From positions 1 through 46,739 of IMG/VR virus record IMGVR_UViG_3300037010_001408: 46,739 bases of DNA. The stretch is one strand, 5' to 3'. This DNA comes from a virus. Positions 23,616-37,881 of this stretch are shown one piece after another. A program made the translations under genes and the position numbers. The notes beneath the pieces were generated by a model. It was given only the letters and a program-made list of their open reading frames with translations. It was not told the DNA's origin and did not search any database. Every line of letters begins with the position of its first letter. Position 1 is the stretch's first letter.

Positions 23616-24128
23616 ATGAAAACTAGGTCCGCAAAAAATAAAGGACGTCGTTTACAAGTGTTTGTACAAAACACACTAAGAGAAATATATTGTAATGAAA
23701 CAACTGAATTAATAGAAGAAGATATTGCATCTAATATTATGTCAGAAAATGGTGTTGATGTTAAATTAACTCCTGCCGCAAAAAAATATATTCCTATGGA
23801 TATTGAATGTAAGAATGTTGAAAACTTAAATATTTTTACAGCAATGGAACAGGCTACCGCAAATTGTAAAAATAACAGAATACCTGTTGTTATATTTAGT
23901 AGAAATAGATTTCCTGAGTTTATATGTTTTCCATATAATAAAATTTATGTATTAAATGAGAATGTAATACATAAAGAAATTAAGTCAGGAAATATCTGGT
24001 TACATGTACATAAAGATACTGATAGTTTTAGTTTTACAATGAAAAATAATATATATTATATTATGAATTATAAAAGCTTTTTAAAGAGGTTTTGTTCAAA
24101 TCCATATAAAATTACAGTCCAACAATAA
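23616..24128 (+). CDS. PD-(D/E)xK endonuclease-like protein
   Basis: 170 residues. The N-terminal KNKGRRLQ (7-14), then GVDVK with Asp48, DIECKN (62-67, the E-x-K pair Glu64/Lys66) and a helix with Gln79 match a known group of small phage nucleases of the restriction-endonuclease fold. Such proteins are thought to cut structured or foreign DNA during recombination and repair. Start follows AAAGGTTATAT. It heads the group nuclease, small ORF, primase and gp47-gp46, consistent with DNA metabolism. Substrate specificity cannot be inferred. Confidence 0.78.
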   Translation: MKTRSAKNKGRRLQVFVQNTLREIYCNETTELIEEDIASNIMSENGVDVKLTPAAKKYIPMDIECKNVENLNIFTAMEQATANCKNNRIPVVIFSRNRFPEFICFPYNKIYVLNENVIHKEIKSGNIWLHVHKDTDSFSFTMKNNIYYIMNYKSFLKRFCSNPYKITVQQ

Positions 24129-31126: not shown

Positions 31127-32342
31127 ATGTCATATATAGAAGATATAAGAATATCATCTGCAAATTCAATGTCAACAGATGCTTTTGGTAGATTTAGAGT
31201 ATCAGAAGCGCATACTTTATTTGATAGCAAAAACTTAAATGAATCCGGATCTTTATTTTGGGATTCATTAACAACCGGTGGGGGGAAGTATACTATATTC
31301 TACATCATCTAATGAAACGGTGTTATAAGTATCAAATGGTAATGTTGGTAGATCTGTTAATCAAACAAAACGTAGATTTAATTATTGCCCAGGGAAAAGT
31401 CAATTATTTATGCTAACTGGTATTTTAGGTACTAGTTCATCAGGTATAATAAAGCGTATATGTGGATATGATGATAATAATGGAATATATTTTATGACAT
31501 CAGGATCTCAATTTTATGTTGGTTTAAGAAATAATATATCAGGAGCAGTTATTGATACCGTTATACCACAATCATCATTTAATATTGATATAATGGATGG
31601 TTCTGGACCAAGTAAAGTAATATTAGATTTAACTAAAAATCAAATATTTCATTTTGATTATCAGTGGTTGGGTGTAGGTCGTGTACGAATGGGCATAAAT
31701 TATAGAGGTGATAATATATGCATGCATGAATTTTATAATGCAAATGAAACATGTGGTGTTTATATTGGTACACCTAACTTACCAATTAGATATGAAATTA
31801 TAAATTCAGGATCTGGTCAAGCTAGCTATATTAGACAAATATGTTCTACCGTTATAACTGACACCGGTCAAGAAGTTAATGGACAAATGGGATCTAATGG
31901 ATGTAATGTTGGAATTTCAGTTACGACCGGACAAAAGATTGGTGTTGTTGGTATACGATTAAAATCAACATATATAGACACTACGGTTGTACCTAATATA
32001 TTATCATTATTAGGCACTAGTACAAATAGGAATTATAGATGGTTTGTTAGTATTAATCCTAGTATATCAACATCAGGTTCTTTAATTTGGCAAGATGGTA
32101 CCGTACGTCCAGTAGAATATGCTACTAGTAGTGCTAGTGTACCTGCAACTATTACAAATGAAGGTGTTGTATTATATCAAGGTTATGTATCAAATTCAAA
32201 TCCAAGTATTACATTTCCTACAAATACTACATTATTAATAGGTACCGATATTAATAATAAACCTGATGAACTTTGGTTATGTACTGATAATTTTGAAGGT
32301 GCAAATACCTTTTATGGTGCAATAAATTGGATATCTATGTAA
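31127..32342 (+). pseudogene. Broken structural gene: frameshift in G6 run plus in-frame TAA
   Basis: The first 53 codons (start 31127, good site GGAGATATA) read SYIEDIRISSANSM, then FGRFRVSEAHTLFDSK and LFWDSLTTGGG. Translation then leaves the coding frame at GGGGGG (31280-31285) and stops at 31310. Shifting by one base restores a continuous homologous-looking frame (SILYSTSSNETVL, then VSNGNVGRSVNQTKRRFNY and PGKSQLFMLTG) to 32342, except for one TAA at 31326-31328 where a Ser codon (TCA) would fit. The family is a large-phage structural protein I recall from similar gene neighbourhoods. Two lesions suggest a real pseudogene or local sequence errors; programmed frameshifting alone would not pass the TAA. 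Confidence 0.75.
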
Positions 32343-32395: not shown

Positions 32396-32689
32396 ATGTT
32401 TGGATTCGTTTCTGAGTTTTTAAAGAAAGAAAATGCAAAAAAATTAGCAACTATGCTAATCGTATCCGTTCTTTCTATGATATTTATTGTTTATAATTTT
32501 GTAGAATTTTCTACATTTCTTATAACGTTCGTTAAAGCAATTGCAGGTATTATGATATTTTGGTGGGTAGATGAATACTTACTAAAAGGTGTTGATACAA
32601 TTCAAGAAATATTAAAAGGAAATATTGCATATGCGTTATTCTTATTTTCTATCGCTGCTATTATTGTTGGCGCTATTGTCGCTGGGTAA
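32396..32689 (+). CDS. Holin-like small membrane protein
   Basis: 97 residues from ATG 32396, with GGAG eight bases upstream. An upstream in-frame extension to 32327 would overlap the previous gene and the promoter, and is rejected. Three hydrophobic segments (about 19-35, 41-58 and 78-95) follow a charged N-terminus. The third segment ends at the C-terminus (FLFSIAAIIVGAIVAG). Size, topology and position directly before a cell-wall hydrolase are those of a class I holin. It overlaps the endolysin gene by 59 bases, so both are made from one transcript. Holins have no signature, so the call is contextual. Confidence 0.6.
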   Translation: MFGFVSEFLKKENAKKLATMLIVSVLSMIFIVYNFVEFSTFLITFVKAIAGIMIFWWVDEYLLKGVDTIQEILKGNIAYALFLFSIAAIIVGAIVAG

Positions 32690-33185
32690 TATCCCACAAA
32701 AAAGCACAACACCACATGTAGATACTGCATTAACATATGTAGGAACTATGGAAGCAACTGGTCATAATGACGGTCCAGTAGTTGAAAAATTCTTACATAG
32801 TGTAGGACGCCATAAAGGAGATTCTTGGTGTGCCGCATTTGCTTCATATTGCATGCAAGCAGCTCACGTAAAAGCACCTACATTAAAAAGTGGTATGGCT
32901 CAAGCATATTTTAATAAAAAATCAATTAAAACAAATGATGTATTAATTGGTAAAAAGAAAATAACTAAAGGTTATTTAGTTATTTGGAAACATGGTAATA
33001 CAATGTCAGGTCATATTGGTATAGTTACTGGTGATTGGACAAATAAAAGTGGCCCAACAGTTGAAGGAAATACATCAGGACCAACAGGCAGTCAATGGGA
33101 CGGTGGTGGTGTATACAAAAAGATTAGATATTTACAACCAGCAAATGCATTCAGAATTATAGGATTCTCGGAGGTTACTTATTAA
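32631..33185 (+). CDS. CHAP-domain cell-wall hydrolase (endolysin) with N-terminal signal/anchor
   Basis: 184 residues from ATG 32631 (AAAAGGA ten bases upstream; a TTG at 32625 is possible but less well spaced). The first 18 residues are a leucine-rich hydrophobic signal or signal-anchor (YFLSLLLLLALLSLG). The CHAP core has GDSWCAAFASYC (catalytic Cys67), SGHIGIVTG (His128) and PTVEGNTSG (Glu145/Asn147). Such enzymes cut peptide cross-links or the amide bond of peptidoglycan. A signal sequence suggests export independent of the holin, as in signal-anchor-release endolysins. The gene ends on TAA overlapping the apparent ATT start of the next gene. Confidence 0.82.
   Translation: MRYSYFLSLLLLLALLSLGNIPQKSTTPHVDTALTYVGTMEATGHNDGPVVEKFLHSVGRHKGDSWCAAFASYCMQAAHVKAPTLKSGMAQAYFNKKSIKTNDVLIGKKKITKGYLVIWKHGNTMSGHIGIVTGDWTNKSGPTVEGNTSGPTGSQWDGGGVYKKIRYLQPANAFRIIGFSEVTY
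33170..33174 (+). promoter_or_regulatory. Shine-Dalgarno GGAGG deciding an ATT start
   Basis: GGAGG, the strongest ribosome binding sequence I see in the window, ends six bases before ATT 33181. The reading frame of the following gene has no ATG, GTG, TTG or CTG between its upstream stop (33160) and 33559, well inside conserved coding sequence. This makes ATT the best start. Confidence 0.6.
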
Positions 33186-34980
33186 ACACAAGAAATATGT
33201 TGATGCTATAGTTAAAAGAATTATAGCATCAAATGAATATAAATTAATTCTAGAATCTACCAAAAAAGATTATGTTGTTACATACCCAGGTAGATTTCAA
33301 CCGTTTCATAAAGGTCATTATGAAACATATAAATACTTATGTAATAAATTTGGTTCTAATAATGTATATATATGTACATCAAATTCAACTAACGGTAATA
33401 ATTCCATATTAAATTTTGCTCAAAAAAAGGCAATAATACAATCATATGGTATACCTGCATCACATATTATTCAATGTAGAGTTCCATTACAACCAACCGA
33501 ATTATTAAATAAATTTCCAAAAAGTGTATCATTAATTATTGGTACTGGTGATAAAGATATGAATCGCCTTGCTGGAAAATACTTTAAGCCATTTAAGAAT
33601 ACTGATGATATGTTACCGTTTGAAAAAGCAGGATATATGATAAGTATACCAACTGTTAAAATAAGTGCAACTGATGTTCGTGATGGTATAAAATCTGGAA
33701 AAATTACATTAAAGAATATAAGCCAATATATGAATCCTAATATAACACAACAAACTTATGATTTACTTAAAGGTAAATTATCAGAAGGTGGTGGTTATGG
33801 TCATATGCAACATATTTATGAAGATGCAAATTTAACATTTGGTGATATTAAAAAAATAATTGATTTAGGTTTAGGTGGTAAATTAAAATCCGTTACTGAA
33901 AAAACTGACGGTCAAAATTTAATGATTACTGTTGTTAATAATGAAGTAAGAGCGGCTCGTAATAAATCACATATTAAAAATTTTGCAAAAGATTCATTAT
34001 CTATTGATGGTTTATTTAAGATGTTTGCCGGCCGCGGTGATATATCAAATGCATTTTCATTTGCTATGAATGATATGGCGGCCGCATTAAATGCATTAAG
34101 TAAAGCAGAAAAAGAAGATATCTTTAAAAATGGAAAAAGATTTTTATCATTTGAAGTAATATATCCAAAAACAACAAATGTTATTCCTTATGGAATGAGT
34201 ATGTTAGTTTTTCATGGTATATATGAATATAATAAAGATGGTGATAGAATTTCAGAAGTTAAAACAGGTGCAGGAAAATTATATAAATTAATTCAAAATG
34301 CAAACGCACATGTACAAAATACATTCACAATTAAACCAAAAGCTGACATTCATTTGAATGCTATAGAAAATGGACAAAATCTTAAAAAGGATTTATATAA
34401 ACAATTATCAGCGATACAAGGTAAATGTGGAGCAAAGGATAGTGATAAACTATCAAAGTATTTTGAATTTAATTGGAGACATTATATTACATCATTAAAT
34501 ATAAACGATGATAAAGTAAATGAGATTTTATTAAATCGTTGGTTATATGATGATAAATCAACATCATTAAATGATATTAAGAAAATGGTTGATGAAAAAC
34601 AATTTTCAGATATTAAGGCAACGGAAGGTGCTAAAGTCAAAACATTAAATAATACGTTTGTTGAACCAATACGTAATATGACTATGAATCTTGGTATTGC
34701 AATACTTAGTAATATGAAAAGTGTATTGACCGTTAACCCAAGTAAGGCAATTCAATCACTACAAGATGAAATAACAAGTACTATAGCGGCTATAAAGGCA
34801 TCTAAAGATGATAGCCTTATAAATAAGCTTGATATTGAATTAACAAAATTAAGAGGTGTAGGTAACATCGTATTACCAACCGAAGGAATTGTATTTACAT
34901 ATAAAGGCAATATTTATAAATTAACAGGAAGTTTCAACCCAATAAATCAAATATTAGGTATGTTGAAATATGCAAGATAA
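33181..34980 (+). CDS. Bifunctional NMN adenylyltransferase-like / polynucleotide-ligase-like fusion
   Basis: 599 residues if started at ATT 33181. Residues 30-180: a cytidylyl/NMN adenylyltransferase fold with GRFQPFHKGH (37-46) and ISATDVRDG (161-169). From about 195: a nucleotidyltransferase of the ligase superfamily with motif I EKTDGQN (Lys241 as nucleotide acceptor), motif III FLSFEV (321-326), motif IV TEGIVF (567-572) and motif V YKLTG (579-583). The first part would make NAD or a related dinucleotide, and the second would seal RNA or DNA, so the two could be linked by NAD/adenylate chemistry. A normal start at ATG 33559 would lose the first active site. It lies between lysis and packaging genes. 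Confidence 0.8.
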   Translation: MKHKKYVDAIVKRIIASNEYKLILESTKKDYVVTYPGRFQPFHKGHYETYKYLCNKFGSNNVYICTSNSTNGNNSILNFAQKKAIIQSYGIPASHIIQCRVPLQPTELLNKFPKSVSLIIGTGDKDMNRLAGKYFKPFKNTDDMLPFEKAGYMISIPTVKISATDVRDGIKSGKITLKNISQYMNPNITQQTYDLLKGKLSEGGGYGHMQHIYEDANLTFGDIKKIIDLGLGGKLKSVTEKTDGQNLMITVVNNEVRAARNKSHIKNFAKDSLSIDGLFKMFAGRGDISNAFSFAMNDMAAALNALSKAEKEDIFKNGKRFLSFEVIYPKTTNVIPYGMSMLVFHGIYEYNKDGDRISEVKTGAGKLYKLIQNANAHVQNTFTIKPKADIHLNAIENGQNLKKDLYKQLSAIQGKCGAKDSDKLSKYFEFNWRHYITSLNINDDKVNEILLNRWLYDDKSTSLNDIKKMVDEKQFSDIKATEGAKVKTLNNTFVEPIRNMTMNLGIAILSNMKSVLTVNPSKAIQSLQDEITSTIAAIKASKDDSLINKLDIELTKLRGVGNIVLPTEGIVFTYKGNIYKLTGSFNPINQILGMLKYAR

Positions 34981-35001: not shown

Positions 35002-35766
35002 ATGGATGTTAAATCCAATGCAATAAATAAAGATTTCGTTGCAAGACGAAATAAAAAAGCACCATCACCATTAGATATTAATTATAGTAATCTTAAAGAT
35101 GCTATTAATGGTAAATTATCTGAAGATATAACAGTTGGTGGTTATACGGGTATTCGCAAGCACTATAAAACTGGCGAAATGATTCAATTTAGAGATAAAG
35201 AATATGAAGAATGGTTTAATCCAAATTCAAATACAAAATATATTAATATAGCACCTGGGTATACAATAAATGACGGTGTATACACTGATAGATTTGCCGA
35301 TAATAAAATGTTCGAAACCTGTCCAGTTTGTAAAAAAACTATAAGAAAACAATTTGATTATAAAATGTTTACAAAAACAGGAATGTGTTTAGATTGTAAA
35401 GTACATGAAGAAAACCAAATAAAAGAATCAGGTGGTTTTGAAAAATATGTACAAAATAAAATATTAAATAATAAACTTTCATATATGAAAGATACAAAAG
35501 GTCAAGTAGAAACGCTTATAAGTGGATTGAATAAAAAAATGACATATGTCAATGAAGACGGTTCAATTGATACTTGGGATAATGGTTCATATGATTCACA
35601 AAAGGCATTTTTAGAGTTACAATTAGCTGATATTGAAAAACTTATAATAGGTTTGGAAAAAACATTATCAGGTGAAATAACCGAAGATGAATTAATGTTA
35701 ATATATGATGAAGTAAAAGCAAATGGTGCACCTGAAACTGCTAGCACTGAGGAAGTAAAAGAGTAA
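35002..35766 (+). CDS. Zinc-finger protein upstream of terminase (possible gp16 analogue)
   Basis: 254 residues, start preceded by GAGGTTACA. CPVCKKT (about 107-113) and CLDCK (about 133-137) form a four-Cys zinc module. The C-terminal half is helical with acidic ends (LELQLADIEKLIIGLEKTL), the N-terminal 100 residues are mixed. Position immediately before gp17 with a one-base overlap is where T4 has the small terminase gp16, which is helical and lacks zinc. So a packaging-accessory or gp16-analogue role is plausible but unproven. Confidence 0.6.
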   Translation: MDVKSNAINKDFVARRNKKAPSPLDINYSNLKDAINGKLSEDITVGGYTGIRKHYKTGEMIQFRDKEYEEWFNPNSNTKYINIAPGYTINDGVYTDRFADNKMFETCPVCKKTIRKQFDYKMFTKTGMCLDCKVHEENQIKESGGFEKYVQNKILNNKLSYMKDTKGQVETLISGLNKKMTYVNEDGSIDTWDNGSYDSQKAFLELQLADIEKLIIGLEKTLSGEITEDELMLIYDEVKANGAPETASTEEVKE

Positions 35767-37382
35767 TGGAACTCGATGACATTGTAGTTAAAAAACCTAC
35801 AATAAAAGAATTAATGGCTGAAGAATTTACACGATGTGGATTGGATTCAAAGTACTTTATTAAAAAATATTGTACAATAGTTCATCCTCAACGTGGTAAA
35901 ATTTTATTTGAAACATATCCTTATCAAGATGATTTACTTGATATATTTGAATCTAAACATAGAACGATTATATTAAAAGGTAGACAATTAGGTATATCAA
36001 CATTATCAGCAGGTTTTATTTTATGGCGTATGATTTTTAATGATGATTATAATGTTGTTATTGTTGCTACAAAACAAAAAGTAGCAAAAAATCTTGTTAA
36101 GAAGGTAAAGATTATGAATGATCTTTTACCATCTTGGATGCGAAGTGAATGTATAGAAAATAACATGTTAAGTGTTGTTTTATCAAATGGTTCGCGTATT
36201 ATTGCAGAAACAACGGCAGAAGACGTAGGTCGTTCTGAAGCTGCATCATTGGTTGTTATTGATGAATGTGCTCACATTAAACGTATGAGTGATATTTGGA
36301 CAGCATTACAACCTACACTTTCAACAGGTGGTGATTGTATTGCTTTAAGTTCACCTAATGGATATGGTAACTGGTTTCATAAAACATGGTGTGATGCTGA
36401 AGAAGGACGTAATAGTTTTCAAACTGTAGAACTTCCTTGGAGTGTTCATCCTGAACGTACTCAAAAATGGAGAGATGAACAGGAAATTGAACTTGGTCCA
36501 AGAAGAGCTGCACAAGAATGTGATGCTAAGTTCTTGTCATCAGGTAATACTGTTATTGCTCCTGATATTTTAGAATGGTATCAAAACAATACAGTAAAAC
36601 AACCTATTCGTAAAATTACACCAACTGTTAGTTATAGCTCAGATCTTAAAGATACTATTTGGATTTGGAAAGATCCTGATTTTGATGCAAAGTATATTAT
36701 AAGTGGTGACGTTGCTCGTGGTGATGGTGATGATTATAGTACATTTCATATTATAGATACAAAAACATATGAACAAGTTGCTGAATTTGAAGGTAAATTA
36801 CCACCAAATAATTTCGGTGATTTAATATTAGAATATGCTGTAAAATATAATGATGCATATGTTATTGTTGAAAATGCAAACATTGGTATGGGTACATGTC
36901 AACGTTTAATTGATAGAGGATGTAGGAATCTTCATTATACAAAAGAATCTGATAAAAGAGGATTTGTTAATGAAAAGACAAAATTTTCATCGGCTATTAA
37001 AAAGAGTGATGTACCTGGGTTTACAATGTCATTAGCTACACGCCCATTAGTTATAAGTCAAATGGAAGAAATTATAAGATTAAAGCAAATTATAATAAAT
37101 TCACAAAGAACAATAACCCAATTACGTACATTTGTATACTTAAATAATAAACCACAAGCTGCATATGGTTATAATGATGATATTGTTATGGCATTATGTA
37201 TTGCTATTTTTGGTAGGGATGTTGCATTAATTAATATATCACGAAATGATTCAATGGTTACCGCAATGTTAGGTGCTATACATGTTAGCAGGTCAGAACA
37301 AAATACACATGGTAATATAATAACCAATCCTTGGCAATATGGAACTGGTAGACAAGCAATAAATTTAACGGAGTTTTTATAA
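35766..37382 (+). CDS. 17: Terminase large subunit (gp17)
   Basis: 538 residues. ATPase: KGRQLGIST (71-79, Walker A), VVIDECAH (163-170, Walker B plus Glu) and LSSPNGYGN (194-202, motif III). Nuclease: SGDVARGDGDD (313-323), IVENANIGMG (367-376) and YNDDIVMALC with Asp471/472, equivalents of the T4 catalytic acidic residues. It would pump DNA into the prohead and cut concatemers at headful. No intron or intein interrupts it. T4 gp17 is 610 residues. The downstream neighbours are an HD gene and the portal gene, not gp18/gp19 as in T4. Confidence 0.96.
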   Translation: MELDDIVVKKPTIKELMAEEFTRCGLDSKYFIKKYCTIVHPQRGKILFETYPYQDDLLDIFESKHRTIILKGRQLGISTLSAGFILWRMIFNDDYNVVIVATKQKVAKNLVKKVKIMNDLLPSWMRSECIENNMLSVVLSNGSRIIAETTAEDVGRSEAASLVVIDECAHIKRMSDIWTALQPTLSTGGDCIALSSPNGYGNWFHKTWCDAEEGRNSFQTVELPWSVHPERTQKWRDEQEIELGPRRAAQECDAKFLSSGNTVIAPDILEWYQNNTVKQPIRKITPTVSYSSDLKDTIWIWKDPDFDAKYIISGDVARGDGDDYSTFHIIDTKTYEQVAEFEGKLPPNNFGDLILEYAVKYNDAYVIVENANIGMGTCQRLIDRGCRNLHYTKESDKRGFVNEKTKFSSAIKKSDVPGFTMSLATRPLVISQMEEIIRLKQIIINSQRTITQLRTFVYLNNKPQAAYGYNDDIVMALCIAIFGRDVALINISRNDSMVTAMLGAIHVSRSEQNTHGNIITNPWQYGTGRQAINLTEFL

Positions 37383-37383
37383 A

Positions 37384-37881
37384 ATGAAATTATTGGAAGT
37401 ATCATTAATACAAAAGGCAGAACAATTTGCTAGAGAAGTACATACTGGACAGTTTAGAAAATCATCGATGAAACCTTACATTGTTCATCCATTATTAGTT
37501 TATAAACTAACAAAACATTTTGGTTTTGGTAAGAATGAACAAATAATTGCATTATTACATGATACATATGAAGATGGTGCAGATCCAAAAGCAATTGCCG
37601 ATTATATTGGTAAAACATTTGGTAGTAATATATTGTCTATTGTTTTACTATTATCACATGATAAATCGGTTGAATATAATACCTATTTATTAGCATTAGC
37701 AAAAAAATCACCATTTGCATTGAATGTTAAATTATGTGATATGATTGCAAATTTATCAGATGCACCAACACAAAGTCAATATAATAAATATAAGTCAGGA
37801 TTCATGAATTTGAAATCTAACAATATTTATATACAGGACAACTTACTAAAGACATTAAACAAGATTTTCAAATTAGGATAA
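37384..37881 (+). CDS. SpoT/MESH1-like HD hydrolase (putative (p)ppGpp hydrolase)
   Basis: 165 residues. The signature AEQFAREVHTGQFRKSS (His20), PYIVHP (31-36), ALLHDTYED (56-64 with His59-Asp60 and Glu63-Asp64) and KLCDMIANLSD (Asp119) is the metal-binding set of the RelA/SpoT hydrolase domain and small alarmone hydrolases. There is no synthetase domain. It would remove pyrophosphate from (p)ppGpp, or a related nucleotide, lowering the stringent response during infection. It starts one base after the terminase stop and the portal gene starts three bases later, so it is embedded in the packaging operon. Confidence 0.83.
   Translation: MKLLEVSLIQKAEQFAREVHTGQFRKSSMKPYIVHPLLVYKLTKHFGFGKNEQIIALLHDTYEDGADPKAIADYIGKTFGSNILSIVLLLSHDKSVEYNTYLLALAKKSPFALNVKLCDMIANLSDAPTQSQYNKYKSGFMNLKSNNIYIQDNLLKTLNKIFKLG

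Follow-up and report, generated by a model that had tools for sequence, protein, structure and literature searches.

A nucleotidyltransferase-ligase fusion protein common in virus collections is a candidate enzyme for mending nucleic-acid ends

The window analysed here is the 46,739-nucleotide IMG/VR record IMGVR_UViG_3300037010_001408, from a bacterial virus, and our subject is one gene within it (33181-34980), whose 599-residue product is predicted to join two enzyme folds in a single chain. The N-terminal nucleotidyltransferase (NT) half belongs to the HIGH superfamily and resembles archaeal nicotinamide mononucleotide (NMN) adenylyltransferases (NMNATs), while the C-terminal half resembles nucleic-acid ligases. 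A first-pass annotation of the DNA had called both domains, and both calls were borne out by profile, motifs, structure prediction and fold search; since both halves were found by structure prediction and fold search, the two-domain observation stands well beyond chance. With moderate confidence, we read the protein as a two-headed enzyme transferring adenosine monophosphate (AMP) that would mend nucleic-acid ends, most likely those of RNA (tRNA) that host defences have broken. The ligase-like family is built from known folds and is common in virus collections, and none of the libraries searched gives it a name.

Sequence conservation in the ligase half is strict. All 46 alignment rows that cover it keep E240, K241, D243, G244, R260, E325, E568, G569, F572, K580, T582 and G583, placing the covalent nucleotidyltransferase motifs I (KxDG), Ia, III (E), IV (EGxV) and V (K) in the correct order throughout. 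The motif residues listed by the first-pass annotation were recovered where it had put them: GRFQPFHKGH at 37-46 and ISATDVRDG at 161-169 in the NT half, then K241 in EKTDG, E325 within a strand at 320-327, E568-G569 in TEGIVF and K580 in YKLTG.

Structure prediction agrees with these motifs. An AlphaFold2 model of the whole protein, built from 67 alignment rows, reached a mean predicted local distance difference test score (pLDDT) of 88.1 and a predicted template modelling score (pTM) of 0.67, and the ligase half folded by itself reached 87.5 and 0.83, respectively. The top 50 rows of a Foldseek search of the PDB with the whole model contained only NMNAT, NadD, NadM and PPAT structures and RNA or ATP-dependent ligases. 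In a VIA search with the ligase half, ranks 1-24 were all RNA ligases (Z 8.9-7.5), headed by the Naegleria enzyme 5cou (Z 8.9, 187 residues, 4.3 Å) and including TbREL1 (8.6), T4 Rnl1 (8.4), Trl1 (8.1) and Rnl2 (7.8); AsfvLIG (7.4), the archaeal RNA ligase 2vug (6.8), Chlorella virus DNA ligase (5.5) and T4 DNA ligase (5.1) scored lower. Apart from one poxvirus F8-A22-E4 entry, all 50 VIA rows were superfamily ligases, the best Z of 8.9 extending over 187-191 residues of the predicted model. The possibility raised at first pass that the C-terminal half might lack a ligase fold was looked at by structure prediction, which returned a ligase fold whose motif I strand ends in K241. This consistent list, together with the motifs, indicates that the modelled ligase half is an adenylation-domain (covalent nucleotidyltransferase) fold; the lower rank of DNA ligases in this comparison is no proof of RNA specificity.

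The protein thus shares an adenylation-domain fold, here predicted, and motifs I, Ia, III, IV and V with the RNA ligases Naegleria Rnl, T4 Rnl1, T4 Rnl2, MthRnl and fungal Trl1. It differs from them in having no significant sequence match, in a mostly helical insertion of ~200 residues between motifs III and IV, in carrying an NMNAT-like NT half, and in ending 16 residues past G583 without a C-terminal domain after motif V. The Rnl1, Rnl2 and Rnl3 families have their own C-terminal domain at that place; the archaeal MthRnl type carries the label Rnl3. The K-x-T form of motif V, present in all 46 rows, is also that of MthRnl. A K-x-T bar to self-adenylation, by comparison with the T4 Rnl2 motif V mutant K227Q (PMC3149579), was considered and dropped, since Thr is the natural residue at this position in MthRnl, an active archaeal ligase (K246/T248, PMC3514331).

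In the NT half, Pfam recognises CTP_transf_like (PF01467) at residues 35-89 (E 1.1e-4, 22.9 bits against a cut-off of 21), and PHROG labels the half 'cytidyltransferase'. Its profile lies nearest to archaeal NMNATs (MJ0541, E 1.7e-7; MTH NMNAT, E 3.4e-6), and it shares with NadM and archaeal NMNATs both the fold and the NMN adenylyltransferase motifs GRFQPFHxGH and SGTxxR, which read GRFQPFHKGH and ISATDVR in the window protein. R38 and H46 are kept in all 31 rows with letters there (alignment A4); by eye, the second His of HxGH is present in 27 of 27 rows and the first in 13 of 27, the others having Gly or Ala. A VIA alignment of the model with MthNMNAT (1m8f) gave Z 13.3 over 145 residues at 2.8 Å, spanning residues 31-204.

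These likenesses, and the NMNAT-like proteins of cyanophage virions, which PMC10665884 and PMC9602691 read as regulators of nicotinamide adenine dinucleotide (NAD) and which may be contaminants, speak for a genuine NMN adenylyltransferase replenishing NAD during infection, with the ligase half as an accessory or a user of the product. We consider this unlikely, and weaker in its support than RNA-end repair. Only the GRFQP and SGTxxR ends of the profile align with NMNATs, the middle, presumed to bind NMN, staying unaligned, and PPAT folds score almost equally in VIA (Z up to 12.8). In the NCBIfam search, the NMNAT models scored far under their cut-offs, the NadM equivalog TIGR01527 reaching 17.8 bits against 181.2, and the best E-value went to another HIGH model, PRK13671 'nucleotidyltransferase' (1.8e-5, 24.4/238 bits). 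The partner is a ligase where NadM has Nudix, and the constant ligase half would be left unexplained. NadV (PF04095) occurs in one of six larger related records, of which the IMG/VR ones may be fragments; it was not found in Microcystis phage Mel-JY01, titled complete, or in the 140-kb contig G001, which has an identical gene and may be a fragment. The first-pass proposal of NAD restoration after NAD-depleting defences is therefore not supported in the form given, and its idea of one protein both making a cofactor and acting on nucleic acid was not borne out.

Relatives are numerous. A scan of IMG/VR with a four-row alignment as the query showed at least 580 stretches encoding one; we retained the 80 best loci, and with the window gene itself set aside 79 remain. 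These include near-copies (for example L031, L034, L035 and L041), and therefore counts out of 79 are counts of contigs and not of independent lineages; L062 and L063 figure in the NT and terminase counts and in neither the alignments nor the tree. Among 50,697 phage records, scanned at E 1e-3 and also at E 10, three held a relative even at the looser threshold: Mel-JY01, the one isolate, for which a literature search found no paper, LR756508 and LR756500. The relative in Mel-JY01 has 639 residues. A pattern-limited search of 84,980 cellular species confirmed eight loci, all on contigs of up to about 20 kb titled as metagenome-assembled genomes, and therefore probably phage contigs.

The ligase half is C-terminal in all 77 proteins parsed, the stretch from motif I to the C terminus measuring 359-375 residues. 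Across the 79 loci, NT lies in the same frame in 51, in another frame in one and is lacking in seven, with 20 cut at the 5' end; counting near-copies, 52 of the 59 informative loci have both NT and ligase. LR756500 has ligase and NT in adjoining genes, and the NT protein beside its solo ligase gene (L006:4289-6250) has an N-terminal SENLDGS that may be a degenerate ligase-like motif.

Some relatives carry further domains of a kind that acts on RNA ends. In a Pfam scan of 40 family proteins, some of them near-copies or 5'-cut, ten had such a domain over a Pfam cut-off: an AAA_33/Zeta kinase in six (L022, L027, L061, L064, L066, L069), an HD domain in two (L019, L059), RNase_T (DEDD exonuclease) in one (L013), and, inside the NT-ligase protein L055:5328-9233, a PolyA_pol/CCA-adding head (E 4.8e-31) with an RNA-binding domain. 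This CCA-adding-type head is the most telling of the accessory domains. Ligase and kinase share one chain in fungal Trl1 as well. Other additions were DUF5661 in four members, GNAT in two (barely over one cut-off in L040, barely under in L031) and weak ParB-like matches in P0003 (under the Pfam cut-off; also in PHROG) and L031 (PHROG). On a 40-row ligase tree, in which the label 'none' means that no Pfam family was detected, the kinase label needs at least four changes and all labels together 13, against 20.7 when shuffled; accessory domains have therefore been gained or lost repeatedly around a constant core. The window row itself, on the longest branch (1.11), has an unsure position in this tree.

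Taken together, the fold, the motifs and the accompanying domains speak for a ligase that repairs RNA ends and bears a second head for AMP transfer. The tRNA repair suggested at first pass, and RNA repair in general, gain from the kinase, HD, CCA-adding-type polymerase and DEDD exonuclease domains of relatives; tRNA would be the conjectured target. In the mechanism we propose, K241 would take AMP from ATP, and the ligase half would pass it to a 5'-phosphate end and then seal that end onto a 3'-OH. Some relatives may bring healing tools in the same chain, namely a kinase, an HD phosphohydrolase, a CCA-adding-type polymerase or a 3'-5' exonuclease. The NMNAT-like half may move AMP to a phosphate; candidate substrates are NMN, a different nucleotide and the 5' end of an RNA. 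The normal acceptor of an NMNAT is a nucleoside 5'-monophosphate. A more specific version has the two heads share one RNA end as substrate: the NMNAT-like half would add or remove AMP at the 5'-phosphate (AppRNA) and the ligase would seal, as a virion-packed, injected repair kit with swappable healing modules. We regard it as a long shot. The gene lies among packaging and head genes, so late expression of the protein and its carriage in the virion are possible. The swappable RNA-end-type domains and the near-constant NT partner offer a lead to a second phage RNA-repair route, and a ligase of this new kind, joined to a partner for AMP transfer, could find use as a reagent.

A parallel pairing exists in cyanophages. 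S-PM2d138 (L102:33486-35261) fuses DUF6267 (PF19782, listed in Pfam without a function; E 1.6e-111) to a following CTP_transf_like domain, and the two occupy adjoining genes, overlapping or near-touching, in P-RSM6, S-SM1, S-RIM44 and contig L162; a same-strand motif search of 8.5-9 kb around DUF6267 in S-SCSM2R, EniLVp02 and ACG-2014f did not find the NT motif. S-PM2d138 was matched in 522 phage records, some through the NT half alone, and was at least 80% covered at one place in 201. In all nine DUF6267 rows, KxDGAP, EGxV and K(L/I)V(D/N)R are conserved and follow one another as in ligases, and DUF6267 also has an HxxHxED-type box. Foldseek matched the fusion-protein model to the 591-residue S-PM2 entry A0A0M6VVW4 (E 1.3e-5, 10% identity), which is S-PM2d138 judging by its matching length. 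The DUF6267 Pfam model did not match the window protein, and hhalign of the ligase half with DUF6267 was not significant (probability 0.2, E 0.32), though the motifs line up. Motif order and structural match, without profile backing, thus suggest shared descent of the ligase half and DUF6267. The cyanophage pairing differs from ours in its reversed order, ligase first, and in adjoining replication genes, for example a primase-helicase, where ours lies beside the terminase. As 'DUF6267' was not found in the literature searched and IMG/VR relatives are so many, the first-pass view of a widespread yet uncharacterised family held up. The RNA-end-type domains and the NT partner of our family also suggest a first functional reading for cyanophage DUF6267, which occurs together with NT in many of the 201 records.

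A link from this pairing to the virion-borne cyanophage NMNAT-like proteins was considered and dropped, no ligase-type neighbour having been found: among 11 genes of S-SCSM1 and S-CREM2 (two NTs and nine nearby), the DUF6267 and ligase profiles found no match at E 0.1, and the NT profile hit the two NTs alone. Carriage of the fusion protein in the virion is thus only indirectly backed.

The phage polyvalent proteins of PMC5512222 offer a further comparison, being mosaic multidomain proteins encoded near virion genes, as here; the Pfam tables of our scanned members differ from them in having no MPTase or ArdC-N family. The reviews PMC9503650, PMC7824862 and PMC5512222 treat phage RNA repair, NadM/NadR/NadV and polyvalent proteins, and an NT-RNA-ligase fusion was not found in their available parts or in the literature searched by title and abstract.

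Several observations weigh against RNA-end repair. Profile searches of the two halves, proposed at first pass, gave a divided result: the NT half matched archaeal NMNATs, and the ligase half matched no RNA ligase family, the RNA ligase models of Pfam (at E 10) and NCBIfam (at E 0.1) giving no match to the window protein (P0001). On that half Pfam gave only sub-cut-off matches (Prismane, E 0.028; Bet_v_1, E 0.21) and PHROG nothing convincing (a weak phrog_14324, E 0.021). The sole weak ligase-type sequence match is that of the relative P0004 to the DNA ligase LigA in NCBIfam (E 0.055, 12 bits against a cut-off of 369), and ligase-half Z scores under 9 are middling by the tool's own note. Profile searches of the PDB also returned eS6 ribosomal proteins (E 7e-5 to 1e-3, others weaker), which we took for chance. 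Seven of the 59 informative loci, each with a complete 5' end, lack NT (L020, L028, L029, L037, L051, L071, L074), which argues against the NT half being strictly required; Pfam found no family over cut-off in six of these proteins (all but L071). Healing-type domains were not detected in 30 of the 40 scanned members or in the window protein, and AAA_33/Zeta could be a toxin-type kinase. A distinct PF09414 RNA ligase is encoded in five of the six larger related records (in four the match passes the cut-off), and an AAA_33 kinase lies no more than 3 kb from each; with a canonical RNA ligase already there, the fusion ligase must act otherwise or be redundant.

The location beside the terminase is likewise atypical of a repair operon. 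The large terminase gene lies downstream in 72 of the 79 loci (at a median distance of 1.29 kb, and no further than 3 kb in 68), a setting that would suit a ligase of DNA ends or nicks readying DNA for packaging, as would the weak ParB-like matches in P0003 and L031, the weak LigA match of P0004 and the absence of both DNA ligase families from four of the six larger records (PF01068 in one, PF01653 in one). The predicted structure is nonetheless closer to RNA than to DNA ligases, the CCA-adding-type polymerase and HD domains of relatives point to RNA, and the cyanophage counterparts adjoin replication genes; we judge a packaging ligase distinctly unlikely. The packaging and head genes nearby could also indicate a protein of the virion or its assembly in which enzyme folds have been retained for a different role. 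T4 Rnl1 (gp63), for instance, also acts as a tail-fibre attachment factor. The invariance of the catalytic-motif positions argues against this reading, which we think very improbable. RNA-end repair remains our preferred reading.

Table 1. Coordinates of the fusion gene, its domains and motifs, and neighbouring genes in the window
Feature	Position	Strand	Evidence and remarks
NT-ligase fusion gene	33181..34980	+	599 aa, putative ATT start; identical DNA in L001-L003
GGAGG, likely ribosome binding site	33170..33174	+	read in sequence, 6 bases 5' of ATT
HIGH-superfamily NT half, archaeal NMNAT-like (~residues 29-185)	33265..33735	+	PF01467, profile, VIA
NT motif 1, GRFQPFHKGH (37-46)	33289..33318	+	sequence and alignment
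NT motif 2, ISATDVR (161-167)	33661..33681	+	sequence and profile alignment
Ligase-like half (residues 200-599)	33778..34977	+	alignments, predicted structure, VIA
GG-GHMQH box (203-211)	33787..33813	+	G203, G204, H208, H211 in 46/46 rows
Ligase motif I, EKTDG, K241 presumed nucleophile	33898..33912	+	46/46 rows; model strand 236-241
Motif Ia-like ARNK (259-262)	33955..33966	+	R260 in 46/46 rows, N261 in 44/46
Motif III strand (320-327), E325	34138..34161	+	E325 in 46/46 rows; strand in model
Mostly helical insertion between motifs III and IV (~361-559)	34261..34857	+	DSSP of predicted model
Motif IV, EGIVF (568-572)	34882..34896	+	E568, G569, F572 in 46/46 rows
Motif V, YKLTG (579-583), K-x-T form	34915..34929	+	K580, T582, G583 in 46/46 rows
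CHAP-domain endolysin-like gene, upstream	32625..33185	+	Pfam CHAP E 4.5e-7; overlaps fusion-gene start
Conserved downstream gene, CxxC...CxxC	35002..35766	+	relative downstream in 66/79 loci
Terminase large subunit	35766..37382	+	44% identical to annotated Mel-JY01 large terminase

The reading frame of the fusion gene is open across 599 codons, within a stop-free open frame of 605 residues, and contains no ATG, GTG or TTG ahead of 33559, a start at which would lose the HxGH motif. Translation probably begins at the ATT at 33181, which sits six bases 3' of GGAGG and overlaps the TAA (33183-33185) of the CHAP gene. In 47 relatives of more than 300 residues with a frame closed on the 5' side, the first ATG, GTG or TTG in frame was picked as the start (ATG 41, GTG 4, TTG 2), and therefore the ATT start is one that we infer from position. 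Three other IMG/VR contigs (L001-L003) have exactly the same DNA across the gene and 500 flanking bases to either side.

Of the neighbouring genes, the upstream CHAP gene had no match among the 79 loci. The downstream 254-residue protein with two CxxC pairs matched no Pfam family at E 0.01 and may be a packaging factor. Directly downstream of the terminase, 37384-37881 encodes an HD_4 domain protein. Two consecutive frames at 31127-32342 (61 and 310 residues) resemble one virion gene split by a frameshift and a stop at ~31300-31400, and look like an assembly error or a decayed gene. Elsewhere in the window, 23616-24128 encodes a PDDEXK_15 phage endonuclease (E 5.5e-8), and 2086-2913 a peptide deformylase (Pfam E 2.5e-27), one of which is also annotated in Mel-JY01.

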